Source of the DNA: Armatimonadota bacterium
GTDB lineage: Bacteria > Armatimonadota > JADLDR01
Direction: 5' to 3'
Length of the DNA: 32,002 nucleotides
NCBI GenBank assembly: GCA_020846535.1
Contig: JADLDR010000119.1
Coordinates: 1 to 32,002 of the forward strand
Positions within the stretch are counted from its first letter, which is position 1; each line of letters begins with the position of its first letter. A program made the translations under genes and the position numbers. Below the pieces are notes generated by a model. It saw only the letters and a list, made by a program, of their open reading frames with translations. It made no database searches and was not told the DNA's origin. Of this stretch, positions 13,326 through 22,358 are shown in pieces.

Positions 13326-13347
13326 GGAATCATGAGGAGGGGTGGCG

Positions 13348-15242
13348 ATGTCACCGGGAATCCGCATACTGCTGTGGATCTGGTCGGGATTGGCCGGGCT
13401 GGGGGGCATAACATGCCTGGCGCTGGCCTTCAGAAGCCGCGCCGCCTCCCGCCTGCGATGGTCTTCGGCGGCCCTCGCGTTTGCCTTGATGGCCGCCGCC
13501 GCTTTCTGGGGAGCCGCCCGGACGCAGCAGCCCCGGGCGCGGGACCGCTATTACGCCGCCCTGGACGACAAGCGGCGCGGCGACCTTGAATCCGCCCGTC
13601 AAAAACTGCGGGAAGCCCTCCGGATGAACCCCGGAGATCCCGCCGTGCGCCAGGAGATTGAGACTCTATCCCGACCCGCCCGCCCCGGTAGAAAAGAAGC
13701 ATCCTTTCGGCCCACCGCCGACGCCGGAACCGGCCCCGGATCCCAAGAAAAGCCCTGGCACCCTTTCCACGACCCCAGCCCTGTCAAAATTACGGCCTAT
13801 CGCCTCCGGGTGGCCCTCCGGCCCGAGGCGCACGGCCTGTCGGCCCGGGCCGACCTGACCCTGAGGGCGGCCCGATCTGTCCCGGAGATCCCGCTCAGCC
13901 TGGGGCTGGAGTTTCGCGTCACCGGGGCGCTCGACCCTTCGGGCAGGACGGTATCTGCCCGCCACACCAACGATTTACTCGTCCTCCGGGACAGGCTGCG
14001 GCAGGGAGAGAGAAAAACCTACCGGATTCTCTGGAAGCGAGCCGGAACAGGGGAGCGTCTCCAGGGCGGGGACGCCATCTCTCCCCGGGGTTCCTACCTT
14101 CGTCCGGAGGCGCGGTGGTATCCTGCCACCGGAGAACTGGATTTCCACAGCCCGGTGCGGCTGGCTCTGACCCTTCCGCAGGGGTATGCCGGCGTTTCGA
14201 TGGGCAGGCGCATTCCGGCCCCTCGGATCGGGGAAAGCGCCTCCATCGTCTGGGAAACCGAACGCCCGGCAGCCATGATTCCTCTGGCCGCAGGCCGCTA
14301 TGCGGTCAAGAGCTTGGTATCCGGGGCTGTGTCGATCCAGACCTATCTCTTCCCTCGCCACAAGCGCCGCGCTGACGCCTATCTTCAGGAGGCCCGCTCG
14401 ATTCTAGCCTTTTACGCCTCCCGGTTCGGCCCCTACCCTTTCAAAAAACTGGCGATTGCCGAGATCCCCTACTTTCCGGGCGGCTATGGCTCCACCTCCC
14501 TCCTGATGCTCACCGAGGACAGCTTCGATGAGAAGGCGCTTCCGGGCGGCTTTCTGGCGCTCGAGATCGCGCACCAGTGGTGGGGCAACTCCGTCTTTCC
14601 CCAGGGGCCTGGCTGCGACTGGCTCTCCGAAGCCTTCGCGGAATACGCCTCCTATCTCTACATGGAACATAAAGGCGGGAAACCCGCTCTAAAGAAAAGA
14701 AGTGTCTGCGCGATGCCGCCCGTTCCTACTGGGCCGACACCCTCAAGGGCTACGAGGAGTCGATAGCCGAAACCGACCCCTACGACCAGGCAGGGGCCTA
14801 CCGGGGCGTGATCTACTTCAAAGGAGCCTATGTCCTCCATTCCCTGCGCTCCGTGGTGGGCGATAAGGCGTTCTTCCGCATCCTGCGGGCCGCAGCGAGC
14901 AGACACGCCCACGGCAAGCTCGATATCGAAACTTATGTCGCGCTCAGCAAGGAAGTATCGGGCAGGCCCTTGAATGATTTCTTCGACGCCTGGCTGCGCC
15001 GCAGCGGGGCCATGCGCCTGAGCTACGGCTATACGGCCTCCCCGGGCGGCGTCGGCGCAACACAAGTGCGCCTGACCATCCGCCAGGAGGGAACGGTTTA
15101 TTCCGTCCCCCTGCAAGCGGCCCTGACCACCGACCGGGGCCGTTACATCGAAACGGTCCAATTCCAGGGCAGCCGGCAGACCTTAACGCTCGAAGTTCCC
15201 GGCGCGGTCTCTTCCGTGGATATCGACCCGGAGGAACAGTAG
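13348..15242 (+). pseudogene. Membrane-anchored M1 aminopeptidase-like protein, frame-broken, zinc site altered
   Basis: Two transmembrane segments (about 5-28 and 38-55) are followed by a TPR-like helix pair (about 68-105) and an M1-type beta domain. The catalytic region reads ALEIAHQWWGN...WLSEAFAEY. Spacing is exactly that of the M1 zinc site HExxH-x18-E (E406, H409, E428), but the first histidine is Leu405 (CTC where CAC or CAT is expected). At about 14689-14700 (TAAAGAAAAGAAG) the frame shifts by -1. The plus frame runs out to a stop at 14766, while the correct C-terminus continues as CLRDAARSYWAD to 15242. The ATG at 13348 is chosen for the GAGGAGG seven bases upstream. Both a frameshift and a missing ligand point to a decayed gene, although an indel error or a natural non-catalytic M1 homologue are alternatives. 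Confidence 0.7.
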
Positions 15243-16708: not shown

Positions 16709-16903
16709 CAGGGCTGTTTCAAAGGCATCGGTTGGGCAAAGCACCCCGCCTTTGTCCCCTCTCCTGGACGCCTCCTTCGGAGGCTAGGCGAGGGGGAGGC
16801 GACTTACCTACCCGCTCCCGGTCGCCAGACTCCCTCTCCACCCAGGAGAGGGATGGCCGGGGCGGGAGAGGTGCTTTTGAAACGACTTTGATACAGCCCT
16901 GGA
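16709..16903. mobile_element. Small palindromic transposon-like element (MITE-like) with 7-bp flanking direct repeats
   Basis: The left end reads CAGGGCTGTTTCAAAGGC. The complement of the right end reads CCAGGGCTGTATCAAAGTCG, so the termini are inverted repeats. An inner pair follows (CCTCTCCTGG near 16758 and CCAGGAGAGG near 16843). The seven bases TTCCGGT occur at 16702-16708 and again at 16904-16910, flanking the element as expected of a target-site duplication. There is no coding sequence. It lies immediately after the CvpA-like stop codon, and the right-hand repeat overlaps the first base of the -35 box of the selenoprotein promoter. Confidence 0.65.
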
Positions 16904-16909
16904 TTCCGG

Positions 16910-16939
16910 TTGACAACCCCTTGACGCCTATAGTAGAAT
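16910..16939 (+). promoter_or_regulatory. Sigma-70-type promoter of the selenoprotein gene
   Basis: TTGACA (16910-16915), an 18-nt spacer, then TAGAAT (16934-16939). The expected start near 16946 leaves a leader of about 33 nt with AAAGGAGG at 16963-16970 and ATG at 16979. An alternative -10 reading, TATAGT at 16929, would be too close to the -35 box. Confidence 0.6.
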
Positions 16940-16978
16940 TAGGCATATCTACAAGGGAGTGGAAAGGAGGCGAACCAT

Positions 16979-17503
16979 ATGCGACAGCGCCCGGCGGCTG
17001 CGGGGGCTGCCGTCCTGATGATGGCAGGATTCCTGCTCATGGCAGGCGGAGCCTTCGGCAAGCAAAGCCCGTATGTTCAGGGAGACAGGGTTTCCGACGT
17101 CGCCCTCAAAGACGTGAACGGCAAGCGCATCAAGCTTTCCCAGTTCAAGGGGAGGCCGATCCTGATCAACTTCTTCGCCCACTGGTGAGGGCCTTGCAAC
17201 GAGGAGGCTCCTCGTTTGGAAAAAGCGTATCATAAACGCTTCGGCAAGAAATTGCAGGTCATCGGCGTTGCGATTGCGGCCCAGGGAGATCCGGTGAAGG
17301 TAGCTCGGGATTTCAAAGCTAAGCACCGGCTGACTTATCCGATCCTGGTCGATACCGATAATTCCATCGCCAGGCAGTTCGGAGTTCAGGTAGTACCGAC
17401 AAACGCCGTGCTGGACAAAGGCCGTAAAATCGTATACATGCAATCAGGTTTTGACGAGAAAGCTATCGAGCATGCCGTCAAATCGGTCATTCCGAAAAAA
17501 TAG
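16979..17503 (+). CDS. Predicted secreted selenoprotein: TlpA/ResA-type thioredoxin with Sec-G-P-C active site
   Basis: Read through the TGA at 17186-17188, this is one 174-residue protein. It has a signal peptide (about 1-27), the family opening VSDVALKDVNGKRIKLSQFKG, then FFAHW-U70-G-P-C73-NEEAP, LQVIGVAI, and the cis-proline block VVPTNAVLDKGRKI (P140). In TlpA/ResA/AhpC-TSA proteins this motif is W-C-x-x-C, so the TGA sits exactly at the first catalytic cysteine and both halves stay in frame. Without readthrough there would be a 69-residue stub ending at the active site, plus a TTG-started fragment lacking it. A SECIS-like hairpin follows the TGA. Start: ATG at 16979, eight bases after AAAGGAGG. 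It probably acts as an extracytoplasmic thiol-disulfide or peroxide-linked oxidoreductase; the exact partner is unknown. TGA serves as a normal stop in other genes here, so this is not a global code change. Confidence 0.88.
17198..17216 (+). promoter_or_regulatory. Candidate bacterial SECIS hairpin
   Basis: AACGAGGA (17198-17205) pairs perfectly with TCCTCGTT (17209-17216) around the loop GGC. The stem begins nine nt after the TGA and the loop starts 18 nt after it. This fits the general bacterial SECIS rule: an apical loop about 16-37 nt downstream with a G in its first two positions. It is inside the coding sequence and encodes the conserved NEEAPR segment, so it must satisfy protein and RNA constraints together. 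Confidence 0.75.
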
Positions 17504-20360: not shown

Positions 20361-22358
20361 GTGAAGAAACGAAAAAACGCCGGACGCGTTGCGAAGGAGC
20401 CTGTCAAAACCGTGCAGGAAGCATCGGTTCCCAGCGTCCATCCGCCCCGGTCCAGGATCGGGCAGTGGCTTCTGGAAGGGGGCAGGCCGGAGGAAAGCGG
20501 CCACGAACACAAAACGCAACGCCCCTGGTATGCCGTGCTGTGGCTGACCGGGGTGGATTATTTCTCCACTCTCGGCTACCAGCCCGGCATCGCCCTGCTG
20601 GCGGCGGGGATGCTCTCCCCTGTCGCCACCGCCATCTTGGTGGCGGTCACCCTCTTCGGGGCGGTTCCCATCTACTCGCAGGTGGCGGGGCGCTCTTACG
20701 CCGGGCAGGGCAGTGTCGCTATGCTGGAGCGGCTCCTGCCGGGCTGGCTGAGCAAAATCTTCGTGCTGGTGCTGCTCGGATTCGCCAGCACCGATTTTGT
20801 CATCACCATGACCCTCTCCGCCGCCGATGCCGCGCAGCATATGGTGGAAAACCCCCTCCTCCACCGCTTTCTCGGGGAGGCCCGCGTCGAAATTACCCTC
20901 GTCCTCCTGGCGCTCCTGGCGGCGGTCTTTCTGAAGGGTTTTGGGGAAGCCATCGGGGTGGCGGCCGCTGTGGCGATTCCCTATATCCTGCTGAATATCG
21001 TGGTGGTGGCGAGGGGATTCTGGGAAGTGATGAACCATCCGGAACACCTGGCGCGGTGGACGGAGGCTCTTGCCGTCAGGGGCGACCCGGTTGCCGTCCT
21101 CCTGGCCGCCGGGCTGATCTTTCCCCGCCTGGCCCTGGGGCTCAGCGGTTTCGAGACCGGAGTGACCGTGATGCCTCTGGTCAAGGGCGACCAGCCCGAT
21201 CCCCCCGGGGCCGTCCCGGTGGAACGGATCCAGGCTACCCGGAAGCTGCTCCTCAGCGCGGCCCTTTTGATGAGCGTGATGCTCCTGGCAACCAGTTTCA
21301 CCACCACACTCCTGATCCCCGAGGAAGCCTATCGAAAAGGCGGCCCGGCGGCGGGCAGGGCGATGGCCTATATCGCCCACCACCTGATGGGCCACACTGT
21401 CGGCAGCCTCTACGACATCTCGACCATCCTGATCCTCTGGTTCGCCGGAGCCTCGGCGATGGCCGGAATGCTCAACCTGATCCCCCGTTACCTGCCGCGC
21501 TACGGCATGGCCCCCCGATGGGTGGCCTATGTCCGCCCCCTGGTACTCGTTCTGTTCGCCGTCGATGTGCTGGTGACCCTTATGTTCAAGGCCGATGTGG
21601 AAGCCCAGGGGGGCGCTTACGCGACAGGCGTCCTGACCCTCATCCTTTCCGCAGCGGTCGCGGTATCCCTGGCCCTCTGGGAAGAGGCCCGGCAGGAGAG
21701 GCGCTTCCCGGGAGCCAGCTTCTATTTTATGCTGATGATCCTGGTGTTCGCCTATACCCTTGTGGACAATGTGATCGGTCGCCCTGAAGGGATGATCATC
21801 GCCTCCGTCTTTATCGTTTCGATCCTGATCCTGAGCGGCCTGTCGCGCTACCTGCGGGCCACGGAGCTTCGGGTGGAAAGCCTGACCTTCGAGGACGAGG
21901 CATCGGCTGCCCTCTGGCCGACCCTGATCGGCAAAAAGGTGAACCTGGTTCCCCTCAAAATCTGCAATGAGGCCGCCTGCCGCCGCAAGGAGGCCGATAT
22001 CCGCCGCTTCTACCGGATCCACGGCCCCTTGGCTTTCCTGCACGTCTACCTGAGCGACGACCGCAGCGAGTTCCTCAGCCCCTTGCGCCTCAAAATCCGG
22101 CGTACCGGTGAAAACTATGCCATAGAGGTCTTCTGCGCGGTCGCCATCGCCAACACCATCGCCTACATCAGCGAGGTTTTAGACCCCATCAGCATCATCC
22201 TCGGCCTCACTCGCCGCAATCCGGTGGTGCAGGCCCTGCAATATCTTCTCTTCGGCGAGGGCGAAACCGGCATCCTGGTCTACGAAATCCTCCTCCGCTA
22301 CTGGAACTGGACCCCCGAAGACGACGTGCGCCCCCTGATCTTCCTGATGAGCGAGTGA
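20361..22358 (+). CDS. APC-superfamily permease with C-terminal cytoplasmic domain
   Basis: The 665-residue protein has a polar N-terminus (1-55) and about 12 hydrophobic segments to about residue 495. A soluble C-terminal domain follows (about 500-640) and ends TPEDDVRPLIFLMSE. TM1 (VLWLTGVDYFSTLGYQPGIALLAAG) resembles the unwound helix of APC transporters. The size and the soluble tail resemble KimA/KUP-like potassium or amino-acid permeases, but no substrate-defining motif can be assigned with confidence. The GTG at 20361 is preceded by GGGAG at seven bases, and a plausible promoter lies at 20285. It ends 24 bp from the convergent hybrid kinase gene, with no classical terminator between them. 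Confidence 0.65.
   Translation: MKKRKNAGRVAKEPVKTVQEASVPSVHPPRSRIGQWLLEGGRPEESGHEHKTQRPWYAVLWLTGVDYFSTLGYQPGIALLAAGMLSPVATAILVAVTLFGAVPIYSQVAGRSYAGQGSVAMLERLLPGWLSKIFVLVLLGFASTDFVITMTLSAADAAQHMVENPLLHRFLGEARVEITLVLLALLAAVFLKGFGEAIGVAAAVAIPYILLNIVVVARGFWEVMNHPEHLARWTEALAVRGDPVAVLLAAGLIFPRLALGLSGFETGVTVMPLVKGDQPDPPGAVPVERIQATRKLLLSAALLMSVMLLATSFTTTLLIPEEAYRKGGPAAGRAMAYIAHHLMGHTVGSLYDISTILILWFAGASAMAGMLNLIPRYLPRYGMAPRWVAYVRPLVLVLFAVDVLVTLMFKADVEAQGGAYATGVLTLILSAAVAVSLALWEEARQERRFPGASFYFMLMILVFAYTLVDNVIGRPEGMIIASVFIVSILILSGLSRYLRATELRVESLTFEDEASAALWPTLIGKKVNLVPLKICNEAACRRKEADIRRFYRIHGPLAFLHVYLSDDRSEFLSPLRLKIRRTGENYAIEVFCAVAIANTIAYISEVLDPISIILGLTRRNPVVQALQYLLFGEGETGILVYEILLRYWNWTPEDDVRPLIFLMSE

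Follow-up and report, generated by a model that had tools for sequence, protein, structure and literature searches.

Selenoproteins with a UxxC motif (U, selenocysteine [Sec]) have already been catalogued among the AhpC-TSA, Redoxin, and TlpA-like (cd02966) kinds of protein (PMC9312934; PMC13188914), and the preliminary description of the present locus as undescribed-looking was therefore too strong. In the accessible text of these two papers, no catalogued UxxC example is stated to come from Armatimonadota. Judged against the published table entries, the protein considered here combines the PF00578 domain with UxxC, as do the Prx-like thiol:disulfide oxidoreductase selenoproteins (PF00578, UxxC; example, WP_010940744.1). 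By table entry it also has UxxC and the Redoxin domain in common with the thiol-disulfide isomerase-like (cd02966, UxxC) and Redoxin (PF08534, UxxC) selenoproteins. The kind of protein is known; what appears less expected is the phylum in which it occurs and the apparent nesting of cysteine forms among the Sec forms.

The nearest well-described system is ResA, a thiol-disulfide oxidoreductase of Bacillus (NF002854), which gives the best match in fold, in PDB sequence, and in NCBIfam. It differs in carrying Cys where the present protein would carry Sec, and also in its genetic setting, as no cytochrome c maturation gene was found among the ten neighboring open reading frames (ORFs) that were scanned. 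A curated Sec-containing family of ResA-like proteins has also been defined (NF041054, ResA-like WAxxUGC motif-containing protein). Its motif is UGC rather than UGPC, and the present protein reaches 57.7 bits against this model of 354 positions, below the cut-off of 300.

The locus is almost certainly one intact gene, predicted to encode an exported ResA/TlpA-like thiol:disulfide oxidoreductase in which the attacking Cys is replaced by Sec. On comparative sequence evidence, the reading of residue 70 as Sec is well supported, because homology spans the in-frame TGA, the sel genes occur in the same draft genome, the TGA column is conserved, the hairpin that follows the TGA covaries, and selB tracks the members that carry TGA.

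Gene organization and similarity to ResA

The window, that is, the whole stretch of 32,002 nucleotides that was analyzed, is the entire contig C119 of draft genome G000 (6.14 Mb in 253 contigs, 96% complete, 8.4% contamination). The ATG at 16979 to 16981 opens a run of 69 codons, followed by the TGA at 17186 to 17188, nine codons without a stop, and a 95-residue ORF at 17216 to 17503 that terminates with TAG, all in one common frame. Rereading gave coordinates identical to those on which the preliminary description had based its two same-frame ORFs. When the TGA is translated as U, the frame encodes 174 residues and places U70 in the motif WUGPC (W-U-G-P-C). The features of the locus are as follows.

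16910..16939, + strand: sigma-70-like promoter TTGACA-N18-TAGAAT, 11 of 12 matches, a consensus match only
16963..16970, + strand: Shine-Dalgarno-like AAAGGAGG, 8 nt 5' of the ATG, read directly
16979..17503, + strand: coding region of a TlpA/ResA-like protein, 174 residues long, with predicted Sec at residue 70 (translation, Pfam, NCBIfam, and PDB sequence and fold matches)
16979..17059, + strand: hydrophobic N-terminal stretch resembling a signal peptide, about residues 1 to 27 (sequence; low-confidence unstructured part of the model)
17186..17188, + strand: in-frame TGA, read as Sec from the reading frame and the homologue alignment; residue 70, which opens the CxxC motif
17195..17197, + strand: codon of the putative resolving Cys73, invariant in the ten-row alignment A1
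17198..17216, + strand: bSECIS-type hairpin AACGAGGA-GGC-TCCTCGTT, apical loop GGC beginning after 17 nt from the TGA
17396..17398, + strand: codon of Pro140, invariant in A1; we take it to be the cis-Pro of the thioredoxin fold

The promoter-like site was the only one that a consensus scan found between 16700 and 17620, and shuffled sequences average 0.3 sites; the upstream promoter proposed earlier is present as a sequence match. This bears on the reading of the locus as two proteins, an N-terminal one of 69 residues and a C-terminal one starting at TTG 17216, which is compatible with both frames being open. We give this reading practically no credence, since the second protein would start at residue 80, would miss both the redox motif and the three predicted strands that come first in the fold, and would have no promoter-like site of its own in the scanned region. 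An antisense ORF of 164 amino acids (16949 to 17443) overlaps the gene.

With C placed at U70, the translation matches AhpC-TSA (3.8e-24, residues 35 to 153) and Redoxin (1.2e-23, residues 34 to 161), both over the Pfam cut-off and both spanning the TGA. The AlphaFold2 model has a mean pLDDT of 85.8, and 13 of the 15 blocks from residue 31 onward reach at least 91, the remaining two being at 89 and 81. Among solved structures, ResA chains come closest to the model (4nmu, 1st9, and others; TM by target, 0.83 to 0.90), and ResA also provides the best PDB sequence matches (1st9, 1.7e-18). These Pfam matches and the ResA-like fold assign the protein to the TlpA/ResA-like thioredoxin-fold oxidoreductases and bear out the complete TlpA/ResA-type fold with W-U-G-P-C that had been predicted for read-through of the TGA. 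The best NCBIfam model is NF002854 (ResA), at 94.2 bits against a membership cut-off of 170. Among the best 8 of 1178 records in a plasmid search, all relatives are below 60% identity, and those with names are ResA or TlpA. A search of genome contigs with the protein confirmed no more than two matches, both distant and titled Parabacteroides and Bacteroidetes, and a family-level search returned matches in its own genome alone.

Selenocysteine insertion would follow the known bacterial mechanism, with SelB carrying Sec-tRNA(Sec) to the hairpin at 17198 to 17216 and decoding the UGA. Lacking selenium, translation would stop after residue 69 and leave a fragment without either redox residue. The N-terminus suggests that the protein is exported. 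By analogy with thioredoxin chemistry, the selenolate of Sec70 would then attack a substrate disulfide, Cys73 would resolve the resulting selenylsulfide, and a reductant would regenerate the enzyme. Standard gene calling is expected to yield two fragments or a pseudogene at this locus.

Elsewhere in the window, a Peptidase M1-like gene lies in two different frames (13342 to 14766 and 14808 to 15242; profile parts 6 to 113 and 158 to 218), which looks like a frameshift or an assembly error and not a recoded stop. The intergenic stretch at about 16735 to 16880 is GC rich and includes inverted segments resembling CCCTCTCC / GGAGAGGG; an exact 19-base piece of it was found nowhere else among 151 fetched loci. 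The 665-residue ORF at 20361 to 22358 has no Pfam or NCBIfam match at an E value of 0.001.

Selenocysteine machinery and the TGA in homologues

The draft genome contains a tRNA-Sec with anticodon tca (72.1 bits), selA (526 bits), selB (370 bits), and selD (358 bits), the last of which carries its own in-frame TGA. All four genes for which a search had been proposed are thus found, as expected of a genome with a bacterial selenoprotein gene, on contigs other than C119, and any single one of them may be contamination. A second match to the tRNA-Sec model in this genome, barely above the cut-off, is a tRNA-Ser. Across the phylum, selB was over the cut-off in 50 of the 101 Armatimonadota genomes searched, and ARAGORN called a tRNA-Sec at the best locus in 9 of 14 genomes tested. 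Seven of those tested by ARAGORN have a TGA member of the subfamily described below, and six of them have tRNA-Sec; the exception is G020, where the best tRNA-Sec match is a tRNA-Ser. Two genomes with TGA members have no selB over the cut-off, namely, G020 (88% complete) and G049 (61% complete). Their TGA copies have intact hairpins all the same, and sequence may perhaps be missing from these drafts.

Among 44 homologous loci that were fetched and aligned, 15 have a TGA exactly at the column of residue 70 and 26 have Cys there; in the other 3, a TGA lies at a different place within the match. The fetched loci are part of the listed homologue matches, and their reading frames were set from the match coordinates. 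Within its own genome, the protein matches 15 places, of which 8 contain exactly one in-frame TGA (5 at the residue-70 column) and none contains TAA or TAG. As a background of stops, one TAG each occurs at two listed homologous places, in G089 and G018. The gene therefore has an in-frame TGA with homologous sequence on both sides, as expected for a selenoprotein gene, and 14 of the 16 invariant columns of alignment A1 lie 3' of the TGA. These data agree with the expectation that position 70 of the homologues would be occupied by TGA or Cys and that the sequence downstream would be conserved, and also with the argument that the TGA does not fall on the catalytic position by chance. Neither of the signs that had been named as speaking against Sec was found, namely, a genome without selB or selC, or decay of this copy where its relatives have TGC.

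A young pseudogene, made from a Cys protein by a nonsense mutation of TGC to TGA in the recent past, would take a single base change, and the same genome does hold a Cys paralogue (L002, WCPPC, 53% identity). We nevertheless regard this origin of the TGA as very improbable. Fifteen fetched members of the subfamily, from 14 genomes and six families, all retain the TGA at this column, selB is present in 12 of the 14 genomes that have such members, the hairpin covaries, and most of the invariant columns follow the TGA. A close parallel is provided by L043 of genome G021, a subfamily member with TGA at the identical place and a hairpin in the same register as that of the window gene, which differs in its Y-Y-U-G-T-C motif and is 39% identical to the window protein.

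An open frame by itself does not show how the codon is decoded, and the TGA might be read as another amino acid, such as Trp as in code 4, or through suppression. The chance of this is slight, given that the TGA occupies the position of a redox Cys encoded by TGC or TGT in other homologues and that the genome has a complete Sec apparatus. A codon-usage scan of 355 kb (the window and 20 stretches of the same genome) found coding character on both sides of 5 of 2963 TGA codons, versus 6 of 1141 TAG and 0 of 902 TAA; these rates give no sign of a general reassignment of TGA, in a scan that is insensitive and missed the window gene. The same failure led to rejection of the scan as a measure of further TGA genes. 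Sec remains the preferred reading of residue 70.

Seven more thioredoxin- or peroxiredoxin-like places in the same genome (L003, L004, L006, L035, L032, L031, and L034) have one in-frame TGA each. The TGA of L032 falls at T-A-G-U, resembling the TxxU of Sec peroxiredoxins, and those of L031 and L034 lie upstream of the usual motif. On the reverse strand, L006 joins a Sec thioredoxin domain and, after it, a membrane-permease-like region, judged by eye, in one frame free of TAA and TAG, and is possibly a fused redox permease. The selenoproteome is counted here as the eight TGA-bearing homologues and SelD, with no size stated beyond these.

The hairpin downstream of the TGA

The published bSECIS model describes an apical loop of 3 to 9 nt with G in the first two positions, located 16 to 37 nt past the TGA, on an upper stem of 4 to 16 bp, with a minimum free energy of at most −7.5 kcal/mol (PMC13188914, section 5). 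The window hairpin, with 8 bp and −9.9 kcal/mol, falls within these limits, and longer stretches 3' of the TGA have different minimum-energy folds. Taken alone, the hairpin carries little weight: its fold is equaled by 43 of 1000 codon shuffles, and the gene contains stronger hairpins at other places. Part of it follows from the conserved N-E-E-A-P codons. At gathering score, Rfam gave no match in the window, and on the gene it gave one irrelevant match only (Xist exon; E value, 3.4).

Comparison among homologues is more informative. A hairpin inside the bSECIS limits, at or below −7.5 kcal/mol, was found in all 15 TGA-column copies versus 5 of 26 Cys copies. In a fixed register, 6 to 8 of the 8 pairs form in 14 of the 15 TGA-column copies, whereas Cys copies form 1 to 5. 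The remaining TGA copy, L035, forms 0 of 8 pairs in the common register and has a separate hairpin located 25 nt downstream.

A set of 20 TGA copies was then aligned in one register; it leaves out the own-genome TGA copies L031, L032, L034, and L035 and ten further TGA loci, and energy was scored for 14 of the 20 copies, the other six being judged by pairing alone. In this alignment, 91.9% of cells are paired, and 21 cells are changed on both sides. The covariation value of 0.396 compares with a shuffled mean of 0.144; none of 500 shuffles reaches 0.396, and slid registers give at most 0.125. Two of the five measures in this test are not above the shuffles, as pairs with both-side changes were equaled in 175 of 500 and further pair types in 236 of 500. 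The outermost pair is formed in just 9 of the 20 copies. The pair d14-d24, between the middle base of one codon and the synonymous third base of a proline codon, is formed in all 20 copies, in which four pair types occur. Conservation of the amino acids does not account for this pairing. With the sel genes and the TGA and Cys homologues, this covarying bSECIS-type hairpin lends support to the earlier interpretation of the TGA as Sec.

The Cys paralogue L002 retains 5 of the 8 pairs, against 1 to 4 in other Cys copies. A remnant hairpin in L002 was considered as an indication of reversion from Sec but was not taken as proof, as the conserved N-E-E-A-P codons alone give several pairs.

Predicted selenocysteine forms and cysteine forms in Armatimonadota

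A ten-row profile of the subfamily was searched in 291 genomes of the phylum, with at most 13 candidates scored per genome. It returned 22 matches of at least 136.9 bits, followed by a gap down to 118.5. The rows of the profile itself account for ten of these matches, and members from nine genomes outside the profile (G126, G123, G129, G117, G122, and four of family f36) also exceed the gap, with scores of 146 to 185 bits. One TGA is present in 17 of the matches and none in the other 5, which are Cys forms; these are L002, from the genome of the window, and one member in each of the four f36 genomes. The f36 genomes (65 to 96% complete) have no selB over the cut-off (0 of 4), versus the 12 of 14 genomes with TGA members, an association with a Fisher p of 0.0049 when relatedness is ignored.

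A subfamily tree was built from 20 members and 12 outgroup rows chosen by the analyst; two of the 22 matches, G020:C127 and the second one of G021, are absent from the tree and from the hairpin counts. The window gene (L001) and L002 are sisters (97/89) placed within Sec rows, and the four f36 rows form one clade (100/99), also placed within Sec rows. Deep branches are weakly supported here and in an earlier tree of homologous loci, which dropped ten of the 44 loci (L005, L007, L008, and L031 to L037), omitted six later loci, and used U as a label for TGA anywhere in the match. A single clade of the 15 Sec rows is disfavored (AU p = 0.0118), for a group that was named after the tree had been seen; a single Sec clade without L001 gives a p of 0.0696 and is not rejected.

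Two Cys forms nested among Sec forms suggest reversion from Sec to Cys, which as a hypothesis is the simplest reading of the subfamily. Changes of this type are described as rare in bacteria (PMC13188914, section 10). A broader proposal is that Sec is used widely across Armatimonadota, the aerobe Chthonomonas calidirosea among them, that this use has for the most part gone unreported, and that Sec would have changed to Cys at least twice, in f36 together with loss of SelB and in L002 beside a retained Sec copy; our own judgment on this proposal is evenly divided.

Selenium proteins seem to be hardly described in this phylum. No open-literature title or abstract on selenoproteins of Armatimonadota or Chthonomonas was found, in a search whose coverage mostly excludes subscription papers. 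The accessible main text of the paper on C. calidirosea T49 and isolate TKA4.10 (PMC4959169) does not contain "selen," nor does the accessible text of one on selenoprotein prediction (PMC12013277) contain "Armatimonad." In a poorly known phylum, selB is over the cut-off in about half of the genomes tested, and one redox subfamily alternates between Sec and Cys. The Sec copy and its Cys paralogue in one genome, together with the f36 Cys clade in four drafts without selB over the cut-off, form a paired Sec/Cys system, so that the gain of Sec over Cys can be tested in close homologues.

Some relatives have a different overall architecture. In L038, L039, L040, L041, and L042, the Sec thioredoxin domain forms the C-terminal part of a longer open frame, and the N-terminal regions vary, so that different lineages may have different partners or substrates. 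L039 also has a neighbor of its own kind, as two subfamily TGA copies, L039 and L068 (G049:C111), are located about 1.3 kb apart on one contig.
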